Of a stretch of DNA of 48,104 nt, positions 7,430 through 28,010 are shown piece by piece. The stretch is from a virus. The notes beneath the pieces were generated by a model that was not told the origin of the DNA, searched no databases, and saw nothing but the letters and a program-made list of their open reading frames with translations. Made by a program: the position numbers and the translations under genes. Where the stretch lies: the IMG/VR virus record IMGVR_UViG_3300025669_000055, positions 1-48,104 of that record, one strand, 5' to 3'. The first letter of the stretch is position 1; the number at the start of each line of letters is the position of its first letter.

Positions 7430-7816
7430 TTAAACTGAACCAACAACAGCTTTTAATGCTATTGATGATGAAGTAACTGTACCAGTTCCTTGGACTGATA
7501 ATTTAATAAACCTATCTTTTATAGGTATAGCGATACGATAAGCCCCGGTAGCAGCGAAAGTTCTCTCTGCTAAACTCACAACGCCAGAACCAGCTGTAAA
7601 GGCTTCTGAAGTTTCTCGGTAATAATTTGTACCATCAGGAGAAAATTCAACTTTAATTTCTACTGAGGTTAAAGATCCCTTCACGAAATCAGCTAAAATA
7701 ATCAATTGATTAGCATCTTTAACCTCACTAATCACTGTGCCGGCCACATAACTATTTGTGAGTATTGCGGCCGCTCTGACTATATGTAGTCTATAATCTA
7801 ACTCATTAGGATTCAT
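7430..7816 (-). CDS. Small beta-rich structural protein
   Basis: A 128-residue protein, predicted all-beta. The segment EIKVEFSPDGTNYYRETSEAF and later FIKLSVQGTGTVTSSS resemble small phage proteins of the head or neck surface. There is no signal peptide. It lies between the coiled-coil gene and the Lys/Glu/Ala-rich gene downstream of the capsid gene. I cannot assign a family; a head- or tail-surface component is the best inference. Confidence 0.55.
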   Translation of the reverse strand: MNPNELDYRLHIVRAAAILTNSYVAGTVISEVKDANQLIILADFVKGSLTSVEIKVEFSPDGTNYYRETSEAFTAGSGVVSLAERTFAATGAYRIAIPIKDRFIKLSVQGTGTVTSSSIALKAVVGSV

Positions 7817-7830
7817 ATTTTTTTAAATTA

Positions 7831-8535
7831 TTATTTATTAACTTTTTTAGTTTCTGTTTTATTTGAAGTTATTTTTTTGACTGGCTCAACTTTCTTTATT
7901 TCCGGTATAGCTTTAGGTGTAACCTTTTTAGCATCTGCCTCAGTTTTGGCTTTAGCGTCTGCTTCAGCTTTAATATTGGCTTCACCTTCTGCTTGCTCCT
8001 CAGCATCTAATTTCGCAATCGCTTCATCACTTTCTTTTTGATCTTTAGCTCTTGCTTCATCTTCAGCTTTTTTTACAGCTTCATCTTTTTTTTCTTCTTC
8101 GACTTTAGCAACTTCACTAACTTCTTCTTTTTTAGCTTTTTGAGCTTCTTCATTTTCTTTTAAACTATCATCAATTTCTTGACCAATTTTACTTTTTACC
8201 TCATCAACAACTTTTTCAGTTTTCTGAGATTTGTTAGACATTTTTTCTTTTTCATCGTCTAATTTTTTCTGCCACTCAGCTTCTTCTTTTGGTGTCATGT
8301 CTTGAGTAGGTTTATTTAAGAAACTAGTCTCCATGTCTTTTCTTACTTCAGACTCATAACCTTCACTTTGAGATCGATAAAGAGCAACTAATTTTTCAAG
8401 CTCAGCTTCTTTCTCTGGTGTTATTTCATTAATTAAATTTGTGAAAATTTTATAATCGGCTTTATCCATTGCCTTTTTAATGTTTTCTTTTTCTTGTCGG
8501 GTAAATACTTCCCAACGAATTGAACCAGTAAGCAT
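7831..8535 (-). CDS. Charged helical protein with Ala/Glu/Lys repeats
   Basis: A 234-residue protein. The first 75 residues look like a folded helical domain (RQEKENIKKAMDKADYKIF). The rest is low-complexity helix rich in Ala, Glu and Lys, with TolA-like words such as ADAKAKTEADAKK near residues 190-203, and a Lys-rich tail. No signal peptide is present. It is two genes downstream of the capsid gene. Possible roles are a shaft, linker or DNA-associated internal protein. Low-complexity sequence gives no family information. Confidence 0.5.
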   Translation of the reverse strand: MLTGSIRWEVFTRQEKENIKKAMDKADYKIFTNLINEITPEKEAELEKLVALYRSQSEGYESEVRKDMETSFLNKPTQDMTPKEEAEWQKKLDDEKEKMSNKSQKTEKVVDEVKSKIGQEIDDSLKENEEAQKAKKEEVSEVAKVEEEKKDEAVKKAEDEARAKDQKESDEAIAKLDAEEQAEGEANIKAEADAKAKTEADAKKVTPKAIPEIKKVEPVKKITSNKTETKKVNK

Positions 8536-9363: not shown

Positions 9364-10347
9364 TTAAATAGCTGCACTTGAACCTTTCGAACTGAAAGCC
9401 CACTGCCATCCGAGTACAACTGGACCAAACACAGTAGAACCGGTTTTAATGGTTGTACCGTTATTGTATTCCGGTTTCTCGTTCATACGAGGCTTCCAAG
9501 CGTAAGCCATGAAAGCTCGACGTTTTGCACGATTACCTTCAGAAAGAGACCAATATTCTCTATAAGCATAAGGAATATCAGCAGCAACAACAACACGAAT
9601 ATTAATTCCACGTCTCTTTAATGCCTCGGAACTAGCAAATTGCAAACCTAAATTTGCAACATCTGGACCTTGACGAGAGTCAATCAATTTATAAGCGTAT
9701 GCTGCTTTTTCTGTAGAGATAACTAAACGCAAATCTCTAACAGGTAATAATTGAATCCCATTATGATTCTGGAATCGGTTCATTCTGGAAATACCGTCGG
9801 TTAAGGCTGTTGGGCCTAATGGTCGTTCAGTATCACCTGATCCAAAATTATTATATTGGGTAGTTCCACTTTTTAAAGCATGTGAACCAAACAATGCTTC
9901 CGAATTTCCAACAGTCAAGAATGTAGTCCCATGACCTAAATAGAATACTTTACAAGCATCCTCATTCCAGCGTTGGTTCATTGATTGCTCAAATTCGCTC
10001 ATGTCATTACGCATGTCCATCATACGTTTTGAACTAGCACTCTTGGCAAGCCAATGTAAATCTTCCTCGGTCATCACAAACTTAGCAGTGTATTTTCTCA
10101 TTGCTAAGGTGACTGGATAACCTCTAACTTTTGTCACAACATTATACTCCTGACCTTCAGAAGATAATGGGGCACGACCAAAACCAGACATGTCGTTCAG
10201 AACTTCTTCTGGAACGTCTGGCTCATATTCGTTTAAACCTAAATCCTGGTAGTAAAGCATTGATGATTGCTCATCTTTAGCACGTGAGTATAATGCACGT
10301 ACTGTTGCATCTACCACATCAGAATATAATCCTTCAATTGTTTCCAT
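9364..10347 (-). CDS. Major capsid protein (HK97-fold candidate)
   Basis: A 327-residue protein that would form the icosahedral shell. The region YNVVTKVRGYPVTLAMRKYT near residues 69-88, the helix that follows (FVMTEEDLHWLAKS), and the C-terminal domain from RLVISTEKAAYAYKLIDSR to GPVVLGWQWAF match the general pattern of HK97-type capsid subunits. Length is typical. It follows the scaffold-like and decoration-like genes in the canonical order portal, scaffold, decoration, capsid. There is no long N-terminal delta domain, which fits having a separate scaffold gene. The start at 10347 is the first ATG after the decoration gene stop. Confidence 0.85.
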   Translation of the reverse strand: METIEGLYSDVVDATVRALYSRAKDEQSSMLYYQDLGLNEYEPDVPEEVLNDMSGFGRAPLSSEGQEYNVVTKVRGYPVTLAMRKYTAKFVMTEEDLHWLAKSASSKRMMDMRNDMSEFEQSMNQRWNEDACKVFYLGHGTTFLTVGNSEALFGSHALKSGTTQYNNFGSGDTERPLGPTALTDGISRMNRFQNHNGIQLLPVRDLRLVISTEKAAYAYKLIDSRQGPDVANLGLQFASSEALKRRGINIRVVVAADIPYAYREYWSLSEGNRAKRRAFMAYAWKPRMNEKPEYNNGTTIKTGSTVFGPVVLGWQWAFSSKGSSAAI

Positions 10348-12407: not shown

Positions 12408-14375
12408 TTAAACTGTTGGTATTCCTTCTCCAGACTCAGCTAGAGCTGCTGGATTATCTGATGATTTACTTAATGCGTTTTGACCGGAACCACTTCCTCC
12501 ACCCGCTTGTTCTAGTTGCGCTTGCTCTTGTTTTCTTTTCTCTTCGGCCGGATCAACTAACATTGATTCATTGTCATTGTTTGCCCTAATTAACATTCGG
12601 GCAGCTTCTCGTTGGTTAAATAAATCTGGTCTACTAGAATATCGATTAAATTTCATATCGGCTTTAGCTGCTCTAATTGCCGGTGTTTCTGGGATTAAGC
12701 TTTCAACACTTGCTTTCATATATAAATCAATCTCTGTCCAATAATCTTTTCGAATAACAACTGTACGTCTTGGCGCACCTTTTTTTCCAGCGGCTCGATC
12801 CTGTTTATAAATCTCATATTCTCGGTCCTCAATCTCTTTTTTCGAAATTGTTTCTTTCTCCGAAAAAATGATTTGCATAGTACCAGCGGACCCGTCCGGT
12901 AAAGATTGATTAGGCACGGAAATTTTTCCAATTTCTTCGCGAGTCTTAAACTGGAACATTCTCATTATAATAGGGAATGATCGAGCGGATGTGAAGAACA
13001 TTAATTGTAATGCAAATGAGTTTAATACCTTATTGGCGTTAGCATCTAAAATAACAACTTCTTTCGCAGTCTGTCTTCCTTGTTCACCTGAACCACCTGT
13101 TTGTGGCGGTGTAGTAGCTCTATCAATTTCAGCGTCAGAACTTTGATCGAGTGCCACGTCTGAATTATCAATTCCTTTAGTAAGCCCTGGGATTGTCTGA
13201 ACATCATCTTTATTCATTCCTGCTGGGGCCGGAGTAATCATTCCTGGAATAACAATATCTGAGTCAACGAATGTACCATTAAATGTGATTAGTGGTGGAA
13301 TCGCTGACATCTTACCTTTCCATCGCAATAAAGTTTTCCAACCATCTTTCCATTTCTTATCTTCTTTTATTTTATTTGCCAATGAATTACCCCAATAATA
13401 TTCTGGTCGCGCAAACATTTCGAAAATACCTTTATTGATTGGGTAATTACCATCGTGATACGGCATTAAATTATCATGCGCGAACATTAATACTCCGTTA
13501 CAAATAATATTGAAATATTTAGCTTTTTTTACATAACTAGGTAATCTACCACTCTCTTTAAATTCTTTTAATTTATGCCTAGGTACAACACTCCAAATTC
13601 TAACAATTTGACATTTATTTTCAGTATCAATCATTTGGCTAAGCTCTTGAAATTTACCGTCATTAAGTCCAGTGAAAATTGTAGTCATCTGAGGGTAAAC
13701 GTATTTTTGAAAATTCTCTAATCCACCAAGCTCGGCCTCGGCATCATCATAGGTTAAATTATCTTGCACACGCATCAATCTTTGCTGCTTCTGAATATTC
13801 GGCTGATAAAAATTTGGAACTAATATTTCTTCATTTGGAACAATATTTGATTCTAACTTCCCATCTACAATATCGTCTTGCACATGGACTGTACCTTGAA
13901 CAACTGTTTTCTGAACTGATCGAACATATTTTTGGTGACCACTCTCTGCCGGCCGTCCATCATTTTCATGTGCATATTCTAACATCGCGCGCGCCGCCGC
14001 AGAAAATATAATATCCTCTTCTTGATTACTATTCTGAGCTACGACTGTAGGATAGAATAAATTCAAGGCTAAGTTCGTCACAAAAATATTTGTTTTGTCA
14101 CGGGAAATTCCAGAAGAATAAGGAACAATCGGATCATTGGGTGAGTTCGCTTCTGTTAAATTATTATAGTCATATTCACTATCTTCCCAAAATTTCTTTA
14201 ATGTACGTCCACCAAGCATGTTTTGACCCTTCTCTTTTAGATTACGGTCGAATAAAAAATGCTGGTATGTCTTCATTATAAAATCAAAATCTTCCTTCGA
14301 TGGAGCGTAGGGTTCTTTATTATTTGCTGTTTGCCTAATGGCATTTGTTAAATCTATATCTTGTTTTGTTGACAT
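12408..14375 (-). CDS. Portal protein
   Basis: A 655-residue protein that would form the ring at the DNA-entry vertex. Supporting signs are the length, the position directly after TerL, and the general pattern: an N-terminal helical part, a middle domain with GNYPINKGIFEMFARPEYYWGNSLA near residues 308-332, then long helices with DANANKVLNSFALQLMFFTS (stem/wing-type). The C-terminal 60 residues are Gly/Ser/Gln-rich and probably disordered. The gene ends 21 bp before the next gene. The large size and a T7-type tail module fit a podovirus-type portal. Confidence 0.8.
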   Translation of the reverse strand: MSTKQDIDLTNAIRQTANNKEPYAPSKEDFDFIMKTYQHFLFDRNLKEKGQNMLGGRTLKKFWEDSEYDYNNLTEANSPNDPIVPYSSGISRDKTNIFVTNLALNLFYPTVVAQNSNQEEDIIFSAAARAMLEYAHENDGRPAESGHQKYVRSVQKTVVQGTVHVQDDIVDGKLESNIVPNEEILVPNFYQPNIQKQQRLMRVQDNLTYDDAEAELGGLENFQKYVYPQMTTIFTGLNDGKFQELSQMIDTENKCQIVRIWSVVPRHKLKEFKESGRLPSYVKKAKYFNIICNGVLMFAHDNLMPYHDGNYPINKGIFEMFARPEYYWGNSLANKIKEDKKWKDGWKTLLRWKGKMSAIPPLITFNGTFVDSDIVIPGMITPAPAGMNKDDVQTIPGLTKGIDNSDVALDQSSDAEIDRATTPPQTGGSGEQGRQTAKEVVILDANANKVLNSFALQLMFFTSARSFPIIMRMFQFKTREEIGKISVPNQSLPDGSAGTMQIIFSEKETISKKEIEDREYEIYKQDRAAGKKGAPRRTVVIRKDYWTEIDLYMKASVESLIPETPAIRAAKADMKFNRYSSRPDLFNQREAARMLIRANNDNESMLVDPAEEKRKQEQAQLEQAGGGSGSGQNALSKSSDNPAALAESGEGIPTV

Positions 14376-14376
14376 A

Positions 14377-16035
14377 TTATAGTTTTAAAATTCTAGCGCG
14401 AACACTTTCTCTTGATTTTTGTTTACGCTTATATTCATAAAATTCTCTATGTAAATCTGATTTATATTCATCTTTCCCTTGCCCGAATGGTCTAAAACCA
14501 ATCTGAGCAATATAATGCAGTGCATCCGCTAAATCATCATGTTTTGCTTTTGGAAAATCATACAACTGTTTCTTTAGTTTAGCAGTATGATCGACAGGTT
14601 TATGTTTAAAATATATTTTTCCGTGCTGCAATCTACCCTGGAGGGCCCCACGAATCCGGTCTTCCTTATTAGTGCCTCCATGTTTCAACTCCACAACAAC
14701 AGGAAATACTTGTTTTTCTTCACTACGTTGCCGTATATACGGCATAACTTGATCCTCTAAGGATTTCTTCTCAATACCGATCTTCACTGGCTTATATGTT
14801 TCCCACACGTAGAAAACCCAATCAATTAATTCAGGAGCATTAAGTCGCGCTTCTCGAACAGATTGTAAATACCAGTTCCCCTCACTATCAATATCAGCAA
14901 TTATTGTACCAGTATAATCCGGATCATTTTTAGCCCTAGCTTTAGAGTCAGCCACATCAATCGTAATATATCGATTCGTAGTACGTTTCAAAATTTCTGC
15001 CGGATCAAATTCTTTCTGTAACCACGCCAATTTAATTTCACGTTCAGCGTCAGTTAAAGGAGTATTAAGCATTTCCCGGTTATAAGTAGTATAACCAAGT
15101 AATCGCTGCTTCTTCTCTAAACTAACTTTCCGTTCTTTCGGATCGGCAATATCTTTATTAAATTCTAAAGCTTCCTTATCAGTATGAACGTATTTTGTCG
15201 GCCAGGTTATTCTTCCTTCATCATCAACTGCTTTTATGTCTCGAACTTTCCAGTCTACCTCATTTTTTGTTTTGTCTTCTAAATAAACAATCGAACCAGA
15301 AAAACTAATCCTATTGGCGAGTATTAAGAAATTACAATCAGGCGCGGACCCGGACAACATTTCATCAATAAATGTAGTAACTTCCAGTGTCATAGCCTCC
15401 GAAACAACAGTTTTCGAATTTTCAATATCATCCATGATAATCATGTCAGGCCTATAGCTATCATAAACCTCACCACGAATATTCATACCAGTCGAATATG
15501 CAATAACTTTAATTTTATTCGACGTAATAAATTCTTTAACAGATTTTTTCTTGGAAAATCTATGATTCTCCTCATCTATATCCATGTCCTTCTCAAAAAA
15601 CAATTGACCAAAATCATCAATAATCTTTTGATTCGTCTGTAAAGCAAATGCTACATCGTATAAGTTCGAAGATGCTTTCCTCTGATCGTAACTAACCCAG
15701 ATAATAAACTTCTTTCTTTCATAACAAATCATGTGAGCCAACCCAATCTTACCTAGAGAGGTTTTAGCAGACTCACGATACATAATCCACATAGCCCCAA
15801 CCAGGTTGTCAAAATTTAAGTCCTGGTACATGTCACTATGGAAATCTGGCATCTCGAACAAGTGATAATGTGAAAAGTAATATAATGAAAAGAGCGCAAT
15901 ATTTTTTCTACATGCGTAAACTCGTTTTTCTTTATCTTCTAATATCTCCTCAAATAACTTACGAAAGTCTTCTTTATTGTCGGGGAAAATTTTCTTTTCG
16001 TTTGAGGAATTTATCAATTCGTTGTTTTTCTGCAT
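14377..16035 (-). CDS. terL: Terminase large subunit (TerL)
   Basis: A 552-residue DNA-packaging motor. The N-terminal ATPase has a Walker A variant YRESAKTSLGK at residues 86-96 and Walker B MIIMDDIE at 198-205. The C-terminal RNase H-like nuclease has TIDVAD with Asp360 and the signature KHDDLADAL at about 498-506, whose acidic residues coordinate metal. The start at 16035 lies 62 bp inside the preceding gene, which implies coupled translation; no later ATG precedes the ATPase domain at a better place. The stop is 2 bp from the portal start. Confidence 0.95.
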   Translation of the reverse strand: MQKNNELINSSNEKKIFPDNKEDFRKLFEEILEDKEKRVYACRKNIALFSLYYFSHYHLFEMPDFHSDMYQDLNFDNLVGAMWIMYRESAKTSLGKIGLAHMICYERKKFIIWVSYDQRKASSNLYDVAFALQTNQKIIDDFGQLFFEKDMDIDEENHRFSKKKSVKEFITSNKIKVIAYSTGMNIRGEVYDSYRPDMIIMDDIENSKTVVSEAMTLEVTTFIDEMLSGSAPDCNFLILANRISFSGSIVYLEDKTKNEVDWKVRDIKAVDDEGRITWPTKYVHTDKEALEFNKDIADPKERKVSLEKKQRLLGYTTYNREMLNTPLTDAEREIKLAWLQKEFDPAEILKRTTNRYITIDVADSKARAKNDPDYTGTIIADIDSEGNWYLQSVREARLNAPELIDWVFYVWETYKPVKIGIEKKSLEDQVMPYIRQRSEEKQVFPVVVELKHGGTNKEDRIRGALQGRLQHGKIYFKHKPVDHTAKLKKQLYDFPKAKHDDLADALHYIAQIGFRPFGQGKDEYKSDLHREFYEYKRKQKSRESVRARILKL

Positions 16036-17598: not shown

Positions 17599-17627
17599 TT
17601 GACAAGATAATTTTCGTATGCTATAGT
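17599..17627 (+). promoter_or_regulatory. Early rightward promoter
   Basis: TTGACA, 17-bp spacer, TATAGT, with TATGC directly before the -10. It lies about 100 bp upstream of the first small early gene and would drive the rightward block. Confidence 0.75.
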
Positions 17628-17727
17628 TAAATAAGATAGGCCGAACGACAAAAAGAGGTTAAGCCATTTCACAAAAAAACGGCACAACAAAAATACTATG
17701 TTATAACTTATAAGTTACAGTATAAAT

Positions 17728-17871
17728 ATGACCTATAATATTACATATAAAATACCAAAATATAGACACGCTAGACAATCCTCCCAAACACTACGAAATT
17801 TATCCAAAAATGACCTCTCGGATTGGATTGCATGGATAAACTATAAAAGGGGAACTTACACCATATTTTAA
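17728..17871 (+). CDS. First small early protein, 47 residues
   Basis: A short reading frame beginning MTYNITYKIPKYRHARQSSQ, basic in its first half and aromatic near the end (DWIAWINYKRGTYTIF). It is the first gene after the early promoter at 17599. The start ATG follows an A/T-rich leader (TATAAATATG), the genome's usual start context. A perfect palindrome AACTTATAAGTT sits 12 bp upstream. No family recognised. Short length makes the call uncertain. Confidence 0.5.
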   Translation: MTYNITYKIPKYRHARQSSQTLRNLSKNDLSDWIAWINYKRGTYTIF

Positions 17872-17896
17872 CTCCATTTCAGGAGATTTAAAACCG

Positions 17897-17934
17897 GCGG
17901 GCAGAAGTGGGGTATAAACTCCCCACTCACCCGC
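17897..17934 (+). promoter_or_regulatory. Intergenic hairpin, GCGGG family, copy 1
   Basis: Helices GCGGG/CCCGC and AGTGGGG/CCCCACT stack around a short loop. There is no U-run after it, so it is not a plain terminator. The outer sequence (GGCGGGCAG on the left, CCCGCATATA on the right) is shared with the hairpin at 18126-18166. Confidence 0.65.
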
Positions 17935-17959
17935 ATATAATAAAATAACATTTAATCAA

Positions 17960-18118
17960 ATGACAAAAAGTTATCAAATCAAAACTTATTTAATTGACTG
18001 CGTGGGTTATTCAGATGAGGATTTAAAAGGAGCTAATACAGACGAATTAGTCGAATTAGTCGAAAATGAAAAGGAATGCGCTGAATATTTAGAGGTGCCA
18101 ATGTCTTATTTAAAATAA
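17960..18118 (+). CDS. Small early protein, 52 residues
   Basis: Starts MTKSYQIKTYLIDCVGYSDE and is acidic in its second half (ANTDELVELVENEKECAEYL). It looks like a small alpha-beta domain; no family recognised. The ATG follows the repeated leader type TTTAATCAAATG. It is flanked on both sides by hairpins of the same family, so it behaves as a cassette. Confidence 0.6.
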   Translation: MTKSYQIKTYLIDCVGYSDEDLKGANTDELVELVENEKECAEYLEVPMSYLK

Positions 18119-18125
18119 ATAAATG

Positions 18126-18166
18126 GCGGGCAGTGAATAGATAACGACTTACTTATTCACTCCCGC
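18126..18166 (+). promoter_or_regulatory. Intergenic hairpin, GCGGG family, copy 2
   Basis: Helices GCGGG/CCCGC and AGTGAATA/TATTCACT enclose a 14-nt loop. Only the outer parts match the copy at 17897-17934; the inner stem has changed on both sides while pairing is kept, which is covariation-like evidence for selection on structure. Confidence 0.7.
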
Positions 18167-18177
18167 ATATATATATT

Positions 18178-18294
18178 ATGAGTACAATTCAAAAACAAAA
18201 CCAAATCAAATCATTTTACAAATTAAATAAACTAACTGCCCTGATACTGCTATTACTAGCCGGCGCGGTGGTGGTAATAAATTTATGGAGTTAA
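18178..18294 (+). CDS. Small single-pass membrane protein, 38 residues
   Basis: Starts MSTIQKQNQIKSFYKLNKLT and continues with a hydrophobic helix ALILLLLAGAVVVINLW, giving one transmembrane segment at about residues 21-37 with a basic cytoplasmic N-terminus. It overlaps the next gene by 10 bp. Small phage membrane proteins of this kind act in exclusion or lysis timing, but function is unknown. Confidence 0.6.
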   Translation: MSTIQKQNQIKSFYKLNKLTALILLLLAGAVVVINLWS

Positions 18295-18464
18295 CAAAAG
18301 AACAACACGCTAACAATGTAAAAAGTTTAATGTTAAACAAGACAGACGCGGTATATAATGCAATTTTAAGAGGTGATGACCCGCGCGACTGTAAAGAATT
18401 TCAACTTTATTTAAAGAAAACAAACGATTATTTGAATAAACATCAATTAATCAAAACCGATTAA
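18285..18464 (+). CDS. Small early protein, 59 residues
   Basis: Starts MELTKEQHANNVKSLMLNKT and is predicted all-helical and soluble. Its start overlaps the 3' end of the membrane-protein gene by 10 bp, so the pair is likely translated together. No family recognised. Confidence 0.6.
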   Translation: MELTKEQHANNVKSLMLNKTDAVYNAILRGDDPRDCKEFQLYLKKTNDYLNKHQLIKTD

Positions 18465-18516
18465 ACCCTAACACGGAGCAGTCCCAGACAATAAGCGACT
18501 GCTCAAGTTAGAGTTT
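18463..18516 (+). promoter_or_regulatory. Long two-tier intergenic hairpin
   Basis: Outer arms AAACCCTAAC and GTTAGAGTTT (one mismatch) and inner perfect arms GAGCAGTC and GACTGCTC form a long stem over a 13-nt loop. It begins at the stop codon of the 59-residue gene. No U-run follows. The left flank CCCTAAC resembles the flank of the hairpins at 19407 and 20475. Confidence 0.65.
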
Positions 18517-18581
18517 AACTAATAATGCGAGCGTCGGCAGTACTCACATAAGTGAACAAACACCAGACCGCAAACAATTAA

Positions 18582-18980
18582 ATGACAAAAGAAAAAAAGT
18601 ATTTTATCGCTGATTTTTACACATCACCCGAGGAAATACAACAAAGAAAAGACCAAATTGATAGACAAATGGCAAGCGTGCTAAAAACAATCAAACAAGG
18701 CAAAATTTATGCCACAGTTACAAGTGTTAGCCGTTCGGGTATGTCAAGGCGAATTCTATTTTTTAGAGTTACCAAGGGCAGCATAGAACGAATAACACCC
18801 CAAATCGCGTGGTTATACGGAGCAGTTACACCTGGGAAATATAACCAAGGCGGAAAAGAACTAATTGAAGATGGTTTACAAGTTAGCGGTTGTGGTATGG
18901 ATATGATTTTTCATACTCTATACAATTGTATGCCGAACAAGCAAGCAAGCAAATGGCGTCAAAATTATAAAACCTTATAA
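18582..18980 (+). CDS. Conserved phage hypothetical protein (RSGMSR type)
   Basis: A 132-residue protein. The pair of motifs VSRSGMSRRILFF (about residues 48-60) and VSGCGMDMIFHTLYN (about 101-115) is one I recognise from uncharacterised small proteins in many phage and plasmid genomes; their function is not established. The protein is basic and probably cytoplasmic. It follows a 65-bp spacer with a small TCAC/GTGA hairpin after the long hairpin at 18463-18516. Confidence 0.7.
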   Translation: MTKEKKYFIADFYTSPEEIQQRKDQIDRQMASVLKTIKQGKIYATVTSVSRSGMSRRILFFRVTKGSIERITPQIAWLYGAVTPGKYNQGGKELIEDGLQVSGCGMDMIFHTLYNCMPNKQASKWRQNYKTL

Positions 18981-18995
18981 ATTAAATTTAAGTAT

Positions 18996-19178
18996 ATGTT
19001 ATTAGAAATTTTATTTACGGAGTTAAGACACGACAAAAACCTAAAATCTTTTTTAGGGGATATTGTTAAAAAAGTAAATGCAACAATAGAAATTAGGAAC
19101 GAAGAGGATAAAATTGTCATAACAGGTGGCAGTAAAGATATAAAAGACACCCTAACAATATTTTACCGTAACATCTAA
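18996..19178 (+). CDS. Small early protein, 60 residues
   Basis: Starts MLLEILFTELRHDKNLKSFL. A helix followed by a beta hairpin (ATIEIRNEEDKIVITGG) and a C-terminal helix suggests a small folded domain. No family recognised. It ends just before the structured element at 19180-19236. Confidence 0.55.
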   Translation: MLLEILFTELRHDKNLKSFLGDIVKKVNATIEIRNEEDKIVITGGSKDIKDTLTIFYRNI

Positions 19179-19179
19179 A

Positions 19180-19236
19180 TTAACCCCTCACCCCGTGGCT
19201 ATCACATAAAACTGGTAGCCACTAGCGAGTAGTTAA
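19180..19236 (+). promoter_or_regulatory. Structured intergenic element, three-tier stem
   Basis: TTAAC, CTC and GTGGCTA (19180-19201) pair with TAGCCAC, GAG and GTTAA (19216-19236). The element is followed by the same TTAATAAATTAAA leader as the elements at 19407 and 20475. No U-run. Confidence 0.65.
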
Positions 19237-19254
19237 TAAATTAAATATAATCAA

Positions 19255-19410
19255 ATGGCAAATGACATTGACTTATGGCGCGATATTGAAGATGTAGAGA
19301 AACTTATAAGGTGGTCTATAAGAGATAAGGATAAAATACTAGAGAAACTTTATAGAAAAGAGCATAAAAAATTAATGAGTAATTTTCAAGCTGTTTACAT
19401 TAATAGTTAA
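19255..19410 (+). CDS. Small early protein, 51 residues
   Basis: Starts MANDIDLWRDIEDVEKLIRW and is helical and charged throughout. The leader AAATATAATCAAATG is a near-copy of the one used by the genes at 19495 and 19700. Its stop codon lies inside the left arm of the next structured element. No family recognised. Confidence 0.6.
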   Translation: MANDIDLWRDIEDVEKLIRWSIRDKDKILEKLYRKEHKKLMSNFQAVYINS

Positions 19411-19476
19411 CCCCTAACCCTCAACCACAAAGGCGACAAGCCATTTCTGCCCTTGTGGTTCTGGGCTAGTGATTAA
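19407..19476 (+). promoter_or_regulatory. Structured RNA element with conserved loop, copy A
   Basis: AACCACAA(a)GG at 19423-19433 pairs with CCTTGTGGTT at 19451-19460. The loop has ACAAGCCATTTCT (19436-19448), identical to copy B at 20505-20517. Flanks TTAACCCCTAACCC and GGGCTAGTGATTAA can form an imperfect outer helix. The loop AGCCA can instead pair with TGGGCT downstream, a pseudoknot that excludes the outer helix. Confidence 0.7.
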
Positions 19477-19494
19477 TAAATTAAACATAATCAA

Positions 19495-19689
19495 ATGACT
19501 AATAAAACAGCTTTATGTGTTGCTTGCCTTGATGAATTTGAGCAAGACAGGGATTTGCAATTATGTGATAATTGCATAACTAAATATGATACCGACAAAA
19601 TATGGAAAGACCACGACGAAAACAAAATTGATATTCTTGATGTTAACGAGAATATTCAATTATTAAATGAGTATATGTTAAATAACTAA
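19495..19689 (+). CDS. Small zinc-ribbon protein
   Basis: A 64-residue protein with CVACLDEF and LCDNCI near residues 8-28, two CxxC knuckles typical of a zinc ribbon. The rest is acidic and helical. Small phage zinc-ribbon proteins often bind host RNA polymerase or nucleic acid; nothing here decides which. Leader AAACATAATCAAATG, no Shine-Dalgarno. Confidence 0.65.
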   Translation: MTNKTALCVACLDEFEQDRDLQLCDNCITKYDTDKIWKDHDENKIDILDVNENIQLLNEYMLNN

Positions 19690-19699
19690 ACATAATCAA

Positions 19700-19876
19700 A
19701 TGACTAAACAATCAATCAAAAAAAGACTTGCCTATTTAAGACAAGAGATTGAAGCCGAACGTATAAGCCAAGGCGAAATCCTTGAATTACAAGGCTTAGC
19801 CGAACACATAGACGCGGGCGACACTCTGCTTTTAGAGTGGGCTTTAGTCCCTGAGTTTAACGGATACTTAGATTAA
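19700..19876 (+). CDS. Small early protein, 58 residues
   Basis: Starts MTKQSIKKRLAYLRQEIEAE; a helical hairpin protein with a conserved-looking C-terminus (LLLEWALVPEFNGYLD). It starts 10 bp after the zinc-ribbon gene, using an exact copy of the same leader (AAACATAATCAAATG). The composition recalls short phage proteins of unknown role that contain an ERIS-type helix. No firm family. Confidence 0.65.
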   Translation: MTKQSIKKRLAYLRQEIEAERISQGEILELQGLAEHIDAGDTLLLEWALVPEFNGYLD

Positions 19877-19899
19877 TTTAATAAATTAAACATAAAACT

Positions 19900-20478
19900 A
19901 TGTCATCGACAAATCGTGGCTATGACCGCCATAAATCAGACTACTACATCACGCCCTTACAACCAATCAAGGAGTTTTTATCTGTATTTTTATTGGATGA
20001 AAATATAACGAGGCCAGACCGTTTAATTTGGCTTGACCCTTGCTCTGGTGGTGATAAAAATAATCCAATGAGTTACCCGACTGTTATTAAGGAAGAATTC
20101 GACCCGTTAATAATGACAATCGATATTCGGGAAGATAGTTTAGCTGAGTTAAAGGCTGATTATTTGCTAGAAGAAATCAAAGCGCCTAAGCCGGATATAA
20201 TTATAACTAATCCGCCTTTTCATCTAGCTAAGGAAATTATAACTAAGGCGCTGGATGATGTTGGCAATGGTAGATATGTGATTATGCTTTTACGGCTTAA
20301 TTTTTGGGGAAGTAAAGACCGCAATCAGTGGTTAAAGGATAATATGCCAAAGTATTGTTATATTCATGGCTTTCCTAGGATGTCTTTCACTAAAGACGGT
20401 GGCACTGACTCAATCGAGTATGCCCATTTTGTTTGGCAAAAGGGAACCAATAAAAATACAAAAATAATATTACTTTAA
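19900..20478 (+). CDS. DNA adenine methyltransferase-like protein
   Basis: A 192-residue protein with a SAM-binding-type motif LDPCSGGD at residues 45-52 and the catalytic motif TNPPF at 103-107, as in N6-adenine methyltransferases. It is shorter than most Dam-type enzymes and has no obvious target-recognition domain, so it may be a solitary, low-specificity enzyme. Phages use such enzymes to escape host restriction. There is no restriction endonuclease gene beside it. The gene ends inside the next structured element. Confidence 0.75.
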   Translation: MSSTNRGYDRHKSDYYITPLQPIKEFLSVFLLDENITRPDRLIWLDPCSGGDKNNPMSYPTVIKEEFDPLIMTIDIREDSLAELKADYLLEEIKAPKPDIIITNPPFHLAKEIITKALDDVGNGRYVIMLLRLNFWGSKDRNQWLKDNMPKYCYIHGFPRMSFTKDGGTDSIEYAHFVWQKGTNKNTKIILL

Positions 20479-20546
20479 CCCTTAACCCTCACCTAAGACG
20501 GCTAACAAGCCATTTCTACCGTCTTAGAGATGGGCTAGTGATTAAT
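20475..20546 (+). promoter_or_regulatory. Structured RNA element with conserved loop, copy B
   Basis: CTAAGACGG (20493-20501) pairs perfectly with CCGTCTTAG (20519-20527). The loop ACAAGCCATTTCT is identical to copy A although the stem sequence is wholly different. AGCCATTTCT in the loop can pair with AGAGATGGGCT just after the stem (one bulge), forming a long pseudoknot. Outer flanks TTAACCCTTAACCC and GGGCTAGTGATTAA match copy A. Confidence 0.75.
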
Positions 20547-20570
20547 AAATTGCCCGCACATTTAAAATTT

Positions 20571-20786
20571 ATGGATAAATTATTTATTATTGAATATTGC
20601 GATCAAGGCACTTCCTGGTATTGGGCAAAAAATAAAGAGGAAGCTAAAAAGCAAGCCTTAGAAACAGATGAAGCCACAGAATATGCCTTAGAAGAAGCAG
20701 AAATCTGGTGCATAGATGAAGCCATAAACAAACAAGAACTAAAAGAACGCCTTGACAGGTACATTAATAAACCATTAAATAAATAA
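20571..20786 (+). CDS. Hypothetical early protein, 71 residues
   Basis: Starts MDKLFIIEYCDQGTSWYWAK and then has alternating charged helices (KKQALETDEATEYALEEAEI). I chose the ATG at 20571 because it follows AAAATTT and matches the genome's start context; the in-frame GTG at 20538 lies inside the conserved right flank of the structured element. It resembles small DUF-type phage proteins but no family is certain. It ends shortly before a rightward terminator. Confidence 0.6.
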   Translation: MDKLFIIEYCDQGTSWYWAKNKEEAKKQALETDEATEYALEEAEIWCIDEAINKQELKERLDRYINKPLNK

Positions 20787-20808
20787 TAACAACACTCTTT
20801 TATTACTC

Positions 20809-20824
20809 CCACGCGTAAGCGTGG
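20809..20824 (+). promoter_or_regulatory. Hairpin CCACGC-GTAA-GCGTGG
   Basis: Perfect 6-bp stem with a GTAA (GNRA-type) tetraloop, just before the terminator at 20833-20885. Probably a 3' end stabiliser or protein-binding hairpin. Confidence 0.6.
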
Positions 20825-20832
20825 CACTACTA

Positions 20833-20885
20833 AAACACTGTTAACTTTACTTTAAGCGGGCAAGTAAAGCAGACAGTGTTTTTTT
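20833..20885 (+). terminator. Rightward intrinsic terminator
   Basis: AAACACTGT (20833-20841) pairs with ACAGTGTTT (20873-20881); inside it CTTTACTT pairs with AAGTAAAG. A T-run follows (20879-20885). This ends the first early transcript unit, in contrast to the other early hairpins that lack U-runs. Confidence 0.85.
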
Positions 20886-20942
20886 ATTAAAAAATAACTC
20901 ATTGAAATAAAAACAAAAATAAAAAATTAACAATTAAACAAA

Positions 20943-21940: not shown

Positions 21941-21991
21941 TTAATTAAGTTAATCCTCTATATGTTTGTCAACAGAGTTTAATAACTCACC

Positions 21992-22108
21992 CCTATTAAA
22001 AAACCGGATAATATCAGTTAGACATTCATGCCTTTATATTACTAAGCCTTATATAAAAGCACGACAAACTATGGATTTCAGCTGATTTTTATCCGGTTTT
22101 TTAATAGG
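21992..22108 (+). promoter_or_regulatory. Large hairpin in the helicase leader
   Basis: A perfect 20-bp inverted repeat: CCTATTAAAAAACCGGATAA at 21992-22011 and its complement at 22089-22108. Inside, ATCAG/CTGAT extends the stem, and TTTATAT/ATATAAA forms a further helix. It ends 20 bp before the helicase ATG. It could be a replication origin structure or a leader that controls helicase expression. Confidence 0.8.
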
Positions 22109-22128
22109 AGTGCGCTAATTAATATTTT

Positions 22129-23697
22129 ATGCTAACGAATGCACTCGTCCAAGGGGCGACTAAAAATAGTATTTTAATTGCTAATTATATGATAGAGCAA
22201 GCCACAATTGACGGTAAACACTTCGCCTATAGCGAGAAAGAAAAAATGCTTTACTGTTATGATGGTAAGATTTATATACCATTCGAAGGGATCGATCTTG
22301 ATCAGTTTTTCCACGATTTTATGGTTCAATACAACGCCACCGAAATGTGGAAATCGTCAAGACTTGCAGAATTTGAGCGAGCAATTAAAGTAAATAAATT
22401 AGTCCCTCGAGTAGAGATGGACGATTACAATGATCAGATTTGTTTTAAGAACGGAGTGCTAGACATGAAGACAATGGAATTTAAAAATCATAGTAGTTCA
22501 CTATATTTCTCAACATTTGTAGATGTAGATTACGACCCGAAAGTAGGTTCCGAACCAGTAGCATTTTTAACCACAATGGAAAAAATCTTTTTCAATACTA
22601 AAACCGGAAAACCAGACTATGACACAATCGATCTTATAAAATGTATAGGTGGCTCCCTCATCTTTCCTAAAAATAAATTAAAACAATTGTTTATTTTCTT
22701 AGGTGGTGGTTCGAATGGTAAATCTGTAATAATGAATACATTTGCGATGTTTTTTTCAACCGACCACACCACTTATTTATCTCTCGAGGAGCTGTCAACT
22801 AAAAACAAAGAAAGGTCACGGTTGCTAAAGTCTCGTATCAATTTTTGTTCAGAGGAAAAAGGTGGAACTATTAATTCAGAAGAAATCAAACGGATTGTTT
22901 ATGGCGAGGGTATAACAATTGGACGGATGTATAAAGAGGCGGTTGAATTTATCCCTAAGACTAAAATTGTTGTGGCCGCTAATTCAAAACCATATTTTAA
23001 AGATACTAGTTATGGATTAGAGCGACGACTTACAATCGTAAACTTCGACAATTTATTTCTGCAAACTGCTAAGTTTAAAAAAACTAAAGACGCGGAGAAG
23101 CAAGGTATATTTTTAGCAGAAGATGATGATGATTTAATGGCTAAAATAAGAAAAGAACGTACACAAATTTTAAACTTTTTCCTAAAAGGATTGAAAATAT
23201 TAGTAGATCGTAAATGGGAAATGCCTGAAAGTGTTGCTGTTAAAGAGGCTAAAGAAGAATATATTGAGGGTAATGACACAGTTGGAACTTGGTTGAAAGA
23301 TAATTATGAAGTTGATGTTAGTGGAGAATCAAAGATATTAGCCTCTGATATTCTAGTAAACTACAGGACTTGGTACCAGGATAATGTAAGCACTCGATCA
23401 TTAAACTTTGCAGTTAATACAATGGGTACAAGAATTAATGAAATTTTCAGATTAAAGCCAATCCGTAAAGCAGTAAATGGTAAGAGATTGGCGCATTATA
23501 CATTAATGAAAAAAATATATGTTACTGACGACGATACAACAGAAGAGCCAGGAGATGGAAGTGAGCTACCGGTGGGCGATCTTGTGCAGGGCTCGTTATC
23601 TATACCAGAAAATCAAGGAGAGCCTACCACCAAGAGAAGTGAATCGGGAGAAGGAAATCAAGAGGTTGAGGAGAATAGCCAAGAAAGAACTCAGTAA
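22129..23697 (+). CDS. Superfamily 3 replicative helicase (P4/D5-type)
   Basis: A 522-residue protein that would unwind DNA at the phage origin. It has the SF3 Walker A FLGGGSNGKS at residues 190-199, a Walker B-like FCSEE near 239-243, and the sensor motif KIVVAANSKPYF at about 279-290 followed by LERRLTIVNF. The N-terminal 130 residues match the D5_N-type region that precedes the ATPase in P4 primase-helicases, but no primase catalytic domain is fused. The C-terminal 50 residues are acidic and low-complexity, and their DNA also encodes the start of the next gene in another frame. Confidence 0.88.
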   Translation: MLTNALVQGATKNSILIANYMIEQATIDGKHFAYSEKEKMLYCYDGKIYIPFEGIDLDQFFHDFMVQYNATEMWKSSRLAEFERAIKVNKLVPRVEMDDYNDQICFKNGVLDMKTMEFKNHSSSLYFSTFVDVDYDPKVGSEPVAFLTTMEKIFFNTKTGKPDYDTIDLIKCIGGSLIFPKNKLKQLFIFLGGGSNGKSVIMNTFAMFFSTDHTTYLSLEELSTKNKERSRLLKSRINFCSEEKGGTINSEEIKRIVYGEGITIGRMYKEAVEFIPKTKIVVAANSKPYFKDTSYGLERRLTIVNFDNLFLQTAKFKKTKDAEKQGIFLAEDDDDLMAKIRKERTQILNFFLKGLKILVDRKWEMPESVAVKEAKEEYIEGNDTVGTWLKDNYEVDVSGESKILASDILVNYRTWYQDNVSTRSLNFAVNTMGTRINEIFRLKPIRKAVNGKRLAHYTLMKKIYVTDDDTTEEPGDGSELPVGDLVQGSLSIPENQGEPTTKRSESGEGNQEVEENSQERTQ

Positions 23698-25659: not shown

Positions 25660-26106
25660 ATGAAAATTTATAAAACACAAAAAGAAGTAGAAAAAGACAT
25701 TAAAAATGGAGTGTTAGCTATCGAGGGAGATGTTAAATTTGAATGTTCAATTTACATCAGTGCTTCAATTAAGGTAACCGCTGGGGACATTAACGCTTTG
25801 GACATTAACGCTTGGAACATTAACGCTTGGAACATTAACGCTGGGAACATTGACGCTTGGAACATTAACGCTGGGAACATTGACGCTGGGAACATTGACG
25901 CTAGGAACATTTTATATTACGCCTTTTGTGGAGTGTATGATTCTATCAGATGTTTATCTATTAAAGCTAAAAGAGAATCTCACAGCGAGCCAGTTTGTCT
26001 TGATGGTAAATTAGAAATAAAAGACGAAGAAGAAAAAGTAACTATTAAAATATCTAAGAAATCCTTAGAAGCTTTAAAAGAAAGTGGTATAGAGATAATT
26101 GAATAG
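25660..26106 (+). CDS. Pentapeptide-repeat protein
   Basis: A 148-residue protein with an N-terminal 40-residue part, eight tandem five-residue units of the form (N/D)I(N/D)A(W/G) at about residues 43-82, and a C-terminal beta-rich domain (CLDGKLEIKDEEEKVTIKIS). Pentapeptide repeats fold as a right-handed beta-helix; some mimic DNA (MfpA, Qnr). The repeat DNA is nearly perfect 15-bp units, so copy number probably changes fast. I know similar proteins in phages and bacteria, without a proven function. It is followed by a large structured RNA candidate. Confidence 0.7.
   Translation: MKIYKTQKEVEKDIKNGVLAIEGDVKFECSIYISASIKVTAGDINALDINAWNINAWNINAGNIDAWNINAGNIDAGNIDARNILYYAFCGVYDSIRCLSIKAKRESHSEPVCLDGKLEIKDEEEKVTIKISKKSLEALKESGIEIIE
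25786..25905. repeat. Eight tandem 15-bp units
   Basis: Eight copies of AACATTAACGCTTGG-type units, differing at only a few positions (AAC/GAC at the start, TTAAC/TTGAC, TTGG/TGGG). They encode the pentapeptide repeats of the surrounding gene. Confidence 0.9.
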
Positions 26107-26155: not shown

Positions 26156-26321
26156 TTTGTTTATTACATTCTAGTAATATTGAGGACAGCGTAAAATGTT
26201 GCTGTTGCGGGAGGTGGATTGGTTGCGTCTCCCTAAGACTTACATCGGCTTAAAGTCCGTGGCGAATCCTCTAACCAAGAGTTTGAACCCTAAAGGATAT
26301 TACTAGAATGTAGTAAACAAA
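26156..26321 (+). ncRNA. Large structured RNA candidate closed by a 25-bp stem
   Basis: The 25 bases 26156-26180 are complementary to 26297-26321 with a single G-U pair. The 116-nt interior can form ACAGC/GCTGT (26186-26205), GGGAG/CTCCC (26209-26233), GACTT/AAGTC (26237-26257) and CTCT/AGAG near 26270-26281. TTGGTT in the loop of the GGGAG hairpin can pair with AACCAA (26273-26278), a pseudoknot. No tRNA cloverleaf or known class is recognisable to me. It lies in a 246-bp gap between two early genes. A small inverted-repeat mobile element is the alternative, but I see no clear target duplication. Confidence 0.65.
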
Positions 26322-26352
26322 CCCCTACTAAATAATTATTAATATAAAAGAG

Positions 26353-27946: not shown

Positions 27947-28010
27947 AAGCGGGTAGGCGGAAAATTATTGGTGTGTGTACGGGCATGTATACGCATTTAC
28001 CTGCCCGCTT
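27947..28010 (+). promoter_or_regulatory. Second long intergenic hairpin
   Basis: AAGCGGG and AGG (27947-27957) pair with CCT and CCCGCTT (28000-28010). The 42-nt interior has a further GTGTAC/GTATAC helix. It ends 18 bp before the next ATG; stem GCGGG/CCCGC is shared with the hairpins at 17897 and 18126. Confidence 0.65.

Follow-up and report, generated by a model that had tools for sequence, protein, structure and literature searches.

Inter-gene hairpins with conserved outer arms and variable inner stems in the early operon of a virus genome

Inverted repeats and processing sites in described systems

Short inverted repeats are kept between the early genes of many phages. Cluster K mycobacteriophages carry SAS elements together with 17-bp inverted repeats before gene starts (PMC3203893), and the authors saw little support for RNA pairing of the ESAS repeats of this cluster (PMC3203893). 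In Microbacterium phages of cluster EG, inverted repeats of 18 bp lie 14-22 bp ahead of gene starts (PMC7302621), and 17-bp repeats are found in cluster O mycobacteriophages (PMC4351075). The early polycistronic mRNA of T7 is split at five RNase III sites (PMC4858673). In integron attC sites the inner parts are variable and the bottom strand is used (PMC2727003).

Here we describe hairpins in the plus-strand early operon of a 48,104-base virus record (the window, taken at its full length; 36% G+C). They fall into two families of different sequence, family 1 (hairpins A-D) and family 2 (h1 and h2). In placement, their closest counterparts are the inverted repeats associated with gene starts in phages of clusters K, EF and EG. 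As with SAS and ESAS in cluster K, inverted repeats recur just before the starts of non-structural genes, in one orientation and with a variable centre. The cluster K consensus differs by subcluster, and the two hairpin families here likewise have different arms. Unlike the ESAS repeats, however, the hairpins of the window have inner stems that change with compensation. The 13-bp, Shine-Dalgarno-containing SAS (GGGATAGGAGCCC) found at the ribosome-binding site in cluster K is absent here, and the leaders are AT-rich. The cluster EG and cluster O repeats resemble the hairpins in that they too are short, inverted and confined to small gaps (in EG, 14-22 bp ahead of the start), but they have a single conserved arm sequence per phage group, and a variable inner stem has not been described for them.

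The resemblance to T7 lies in the setting: in both cases hairpins that are not terminators separate the genes of an early polycistronic transcript. The T7 site R1.1 is built of two helices around an internal loop, with some 20 pairs in all, and sites of this type span about two turns of double-stranded RNA. Family 1 appears to be similar in build and in number of pairs. In contrast to the T7 sites, with which they have no sequence relationship, the hairpins here fold at least as well on the antisense as on the sense strand, those of family 2 are shorter (13-17 pairs), and cleavage is putative. Like attC, the hairpins combine conserved ends with a variable centre between genes of the same direction, the minus strand folds better, and in family 1 a stop codon lies in the 5' arm. 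They differ from attC in that core sites are absent, no integrase was recognised among the scanned proteins and there is no evidence of gene exchange. TIGR-Tas arrays were set aside, as the hairpins do not form a tandem array.

Hairpins in the gaps of the early operon

The early region lies on the plus strand and is flanked on either side by minus-strand genes, labelled structural on the basis of the terminase and the gene arrangement. The early operon extends from a promoter-like site, TTGACA-17-TATAGT (17599-17627, plus strand; 11/12 matches, with TG before the second hexamer), to a probable terminator hairpin with a T tract at approximately 20838-20892 on the same strand. Promoters in the window are sigma-70-like in appearance, and a TTGACA-TATAAT-like site is present at the position equivalent to 17599 in both of the nearest relatives, L080 and L081. 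A motif, AAGCCATTTC, is present at 17661-17670 in the 5' leader of the operon as well as at 19438-19447 and 20507-20516, in the loops of C and D.

Hairpins h1 (17897-17934) and h2 (18126-18166), both on the plus strand, are located at the head of the operon. A possible, uncertain ORF of 47 residues (17728-17871) precedes h1, and an ORF of 52 residues without known relatives (17960-18118) is placed between the two hairpins. Directly 3' of h2 begins a 38-residue ORF with a hydrophobic segment (18178-18294), which overlaps the start of the ORF at 18285 and was overlooked in the first-pass annotation. That annotation had described two hairpins with common outer arms around a gene of 52 residues; both positions, the exact arm repeat and the ORF were recovered. 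The arms, GGCGGGCAG / CCCGCATATA, are identical over 9 and 10 nt. The pattern GGCGGGCAG...CCCGCATATA occurs exactly twice, the reversed-pattern control zero times, and h1/h2 represent the sole GC-armed hairpin in the window with repeated 8+7-nt arms (0 in 120 dinucleotide shuffles). RNA folding of 56-nt stretches gave -22.5 kcal/mol for h1 (z -4.58) and -20.0 kcal/mol for h2 (z -5.67), and none of 200 shuffles equalled either value.

In a structure-based alignment, both hairpins are built on a GCGGG/CCCGC base, followed by an irregular junction and then a GTG/CAC step. Above this step, one hairpin continues with G-C, G-C, G-C and the other with A-U, A-U, U-A. Three pairs are thus altered on both sides with pairing kept, and h2 forms additional pairs (17 in total, against 13 in h1). 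The inner stems had been called fully compensated, which is correct for the paired positions; the lower junctions, however, differ by bulges. A proposed recurrence of GCGGG/CCCGC at 27947-28010 turned out to be a different, larger hairpin (AAGCGGGTAGG / CCTGCCCGCTT). Its status as a third family-2 copy is unproven; GGCGGGCAG with one mismatch occurs 5 times, against 1.45 expected.

Folding of the remaining gaps revealed family 1, with hairpins A (18462-18519), B (19179-19238), C (19407-19477) and D (20476-20546) on the plus strand. This family also combines conserved outer arms with variable inner stems, and its members have about 19-24 pairs, arranged in two helices around an internal loop. 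They begin at the stop codon of the preceding gene or within it, and the 5' arm contains TAA in three of the four. C and D have the outer arms and a 13-nt loop, ACAAGCCATTTCT, in common and differ in the inner stem. In their alignment 97.5% of cells are paired, compared to 22-50% in slid registers; both partners are exchanged in 3 pairs, and one pair is imperfect. The compensation count was equalled or exceeded in 79 of 500 shuffles, so that the C/D comparison, which comprises two sequences only, is suggestive and short of proof. A covariance model built from C and D recovers both, matches B weakly (E 0.12), and gave no match to A and none in 21 other loci.

Taken together, h1, h2 and A-D occupy all six inter-gene gaps of the operon that exceed 25 nt, a regularity that the first-pass annotation had missed, while no hairpin is present where genes overlap or lie less than 25 nt apart. 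Relative to the end of the preceding stop codon, the hairpin starts range from 4 nt before to 25 nt after. The distance from the hairpin end to the next ATG is 11-25 nt in five cases and 62 nt for A. Terminator-like sites with a T tract coincide with none of the six, and an Rfam search gave no match above the gathering score for the hairpins. Of the 22 gaps in the window that measure 45 nt or more, 10 contain a hairpin at z<-5, compared to a mean of 1.3 and a maximum of 5 in samples of coding stretches (n=300). Among 107 control gaps from AT-rich virus loci, 28% reach z<-4 and 21% z<-5. The tiny 52-residue gene is flanked by h1 and h2 because almost every inter-gene gap of the early operon has such a hairpin, and the framing of a single gene is an accident of scale.

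Other structured features occur elsewhere in the window. The element at 26156-26322, in a 246-nt gap, has a closing stem of ~25 pairs and a branched interior (-59.6 kcal/mol, z -5.4); it gave no Rfam match and, from the folding model, is possibly a structured non-coding RNA. A very long hairpin at 21990-22118, with ~20 basal pairs and 36 in total by a symmetric count, stands just before a primase-like gene (22129-23697). Within the gene at 25660-26106, tandem repeats of ~15 nt (25780-25910; GGGAACATTAACGCT) encode repeated NINAG/NIDAG-like residues.

Distant relatives of the locus

The only close record, L053, is the same virus, 100% identical over the shared 14.8 kb. The h1/h2 arm pattern matched 74 stretches among 2.9 million virus contigs, with real hairpins only in L053 and the rest unrelated. 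Among the virus contigs, the family-1 loop-plus-arm pattern was present in the same virus and otherwise only in two coding stretches by coincidence, and it had no match among genome contigs. No DNA similarity to known phages was found. The terminase, the primase and the 52-residue gene yielded no close relatives when used as bait, and for the last no relative was found at all. With the methyltransferase as bait, 48 other loci were recovered, none with two or more window genes. Repeated outer-arm hairpin families were seen only in the window in a scan of 133 loci, a crude scan that missed h1/h2 and the pair in L080.

The 132-residue protein encoded at 18582-18980 on the plus strand led to the two nearest relatives, L080 (53% identity) and L081 (46%). 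Both are distant, and their gaps hold hairpins of other sequence. L081 is syntenic, with homologues in the same order of 12408-14375 (21% identity), the terminase at 14377-16035 (28%), 9364-10347 (34%) and the 132-residue protein (46%). It does not contain the 52-residue gene, and between the promoter and the 132-residue homologue has a hairpin with GGCGGG/CCCGCC arms. GGCGGG is found only twice on the hairpin strand of this 12.6-kb locus. Going by the arm sequence, this hairpin may be a relative of family 2, although the case is weak.

In L080, the hairpins of two successive gaps have the outer arms GGGCGTC / GGCGTCY in common and different inner stems; the hairpin pattern therefore recurs with other sequences. 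The second hairpin of each gap (7774-7846 and 8066-8140 of L080) keeps the loop CAATATAAG, with stems GGCTA/TAGCC in one and GCC.GC/GC.GGC in the other. A two-hairpin gap follows the 132-residue homologue in both L080 and L081, and the genes after it differ. This is the only hint, and a weak one, of a hairpin that stays while its gene changes. Insertion of a gene beside the hairpin explains the difference without a cassette mechanism.

Possible roles of the hairpins

We tentatively read the hairpins as intercistronic mRNA elements that mark processing or stability boundaries in the early transcript, a reading that may well be right and is far from secure. Post-transcriptional action at the mRNA level is favoured because of the position of the hairpins, the missing T tracts, their repetition in one transcript and the pairing that is kept through sequence change. 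h1 and h2 would thus belong to a set of RNA hairpins that punctuate a single polycistronic early transcript (about 17630 to 20890), each placed after the stop codon of a small gene and ahead of the start leader of the gene that follows. The conservation of the arm sequences suggests recognition by a protein. The outer arms, together with the 13-nt loop of C and D, are probably read by an RNA-binding protein or nuclease of the host or phage, and the inner stems would be free to vary provided that pairing holds. The early mRNA could then be cut at the hairpins by a double-strand-specific nuclease, or be shielded there from exonucleases, so that mRNAs covering one gene or a few genes would persist, in the manner of the T7 RNase III sites. 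We infer that the hairpins work as RNA, that their arms are read by a protein and that the message is cut or stabilised. With 13 pairs, h1 is short for an RNase III site, which counts against processing.

It is less probable, but deserves consideration, that the hairpins are start-associated sites similar to SAS/ESAS, where a protein bound to the conserved arms, in RNA or DNA, acts at the initiation of translation or transcription of the following gene and co-ordinates the early genes. Five of the six hairpins end within 25 nt of the ATG, the arm sequence is conserved as expected for a recognition site, and cluster K (PMC3203893) and cluster EG (PMC7302621) provide precedents. Among the start signals of the window, a Shine-Dalgarno-like motif is absent within 20 nt of the start in 54 of the 58 listed genes, and across 34 genes the last 20 nt before the start are 84-94% A+T, compared to 62-69% at -26 to -40. 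The hairpins sit just outside this AT-rich leader. Several of them are followed by a repeated AT-rich box similar to AATTAAACATAATCAAATG (19255, 19495, 19700), but the box also precedes genes that have no hairpin (19700, 19900). The contact of family 1 with stop codons implicates the upstream gene as much as the downstream one, and the little support for RNA pairing in ESAS is unlike the situation here. When native and shuffled hairpins were compared by folding, start accessibility was clearly raised in none of the six cases and lowered in three. A simple insulating role, in which the hairpins expose the start, is therefore unsupported.

The hairpins are unlikely to be transcription attenuators or pause sites, at which partial stops of RNA polymerase would grade expression along the operon. 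A site directly after a stop codon is the usual place of a terminator, and the operon is indeed closed by a terminator-like hairpin that has a T tract; such a tract is missing from all six hairpins, however, and a short AT-rich spacer leads straight to the next gene.

Slightly more doubtful still is that the folded minus strand, in single-stranded DNA or as an antisense-strand element, acts in recombination or replication, for example as integron-like cassette ends. The antisense strand is at least slightly more stable in all six hairpins. Mismatches in family 1 are mostly A-C, corresponding to wobble pairs on the antisense strand (10, versus 2 G-T, which wobble on the sense strand), while for other intergenic hairpins in the window A-C and G-T stand at 3 to 13, mostly sense-strand wobble. 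This bias does not fit a structure selected in sense mRNA, but it counts only weakly since the family 1 copies share ancestry. Better folding of the minus strand and the wobble bias thus leave some room for a DNA or antisense reading, for which the variable inner parts and bottom-strand use of attC (PMC2727003) and the two-hairpin gap of L080 and L081, placed after the same gene and before different ones, also speak. The hairpin gaps of L080, on the other hand, are more stable as sense RNA (-22.9 versus -14.9 and -20.8 versus -15.9 kcal/mol). The attC core pair (R'' RYYYAAC / R' GTTRRRY) does not occur in the operon, h1 and h2 are without any AAC..GTT, and no recombinase or integrase was recognised among the scanned proteins, which comprise part of the ORFs of a possibly incomplete record. 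Genes separated by less than 25 nt have no hairpin between them and are not bounded one by one.

The first-pass annotation had offered exchangeable gene cassettes or RNA-processing boundaries as explanations of the framing. Cassettes are unsupported, as the hairpins single out no gene, attC cores are absent and no recombinase was recognised among the scanned proteins; the 52-residue gene also has no relative for comparison, and the one close record is identical. RNA boundaries are plausible and fit the presence of hairpins in 6/6 gaps above 25 nt, near the upstream stop codon, with pairing kept through change of the inner sequence. A more speculative variant, which we consider very improbable, is a phage-specific, hairpin-based system of gene boundaries unlike integrons. 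It would read the conserved arms (in C and D also the loop) on a minus strand folded as single-stranded DNA or antisense RNA, and would segment or rearrange the early operon. We give equally little weight to h1 and h2 as simple, functionless copies in drift, as their identity over 9 and 10 nt might indicate, because the upper stems have changed on both sides and still pair, and because this pattern is repeated within the operon by a second, unrelated family.

Several copies with fixed arms and changed yet pairing inner stems within one genome constitute an internal comparison, suggesting from sequence that structure is kept as well as sequence. For the preferred reading as mRNA elements, the hairpins provide exact segments for the study of mRNA processing. 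If they are processing sites, this lineage would join message cutting in the style of T7 with starts that mostly have no Shine-Dalgarno motif.
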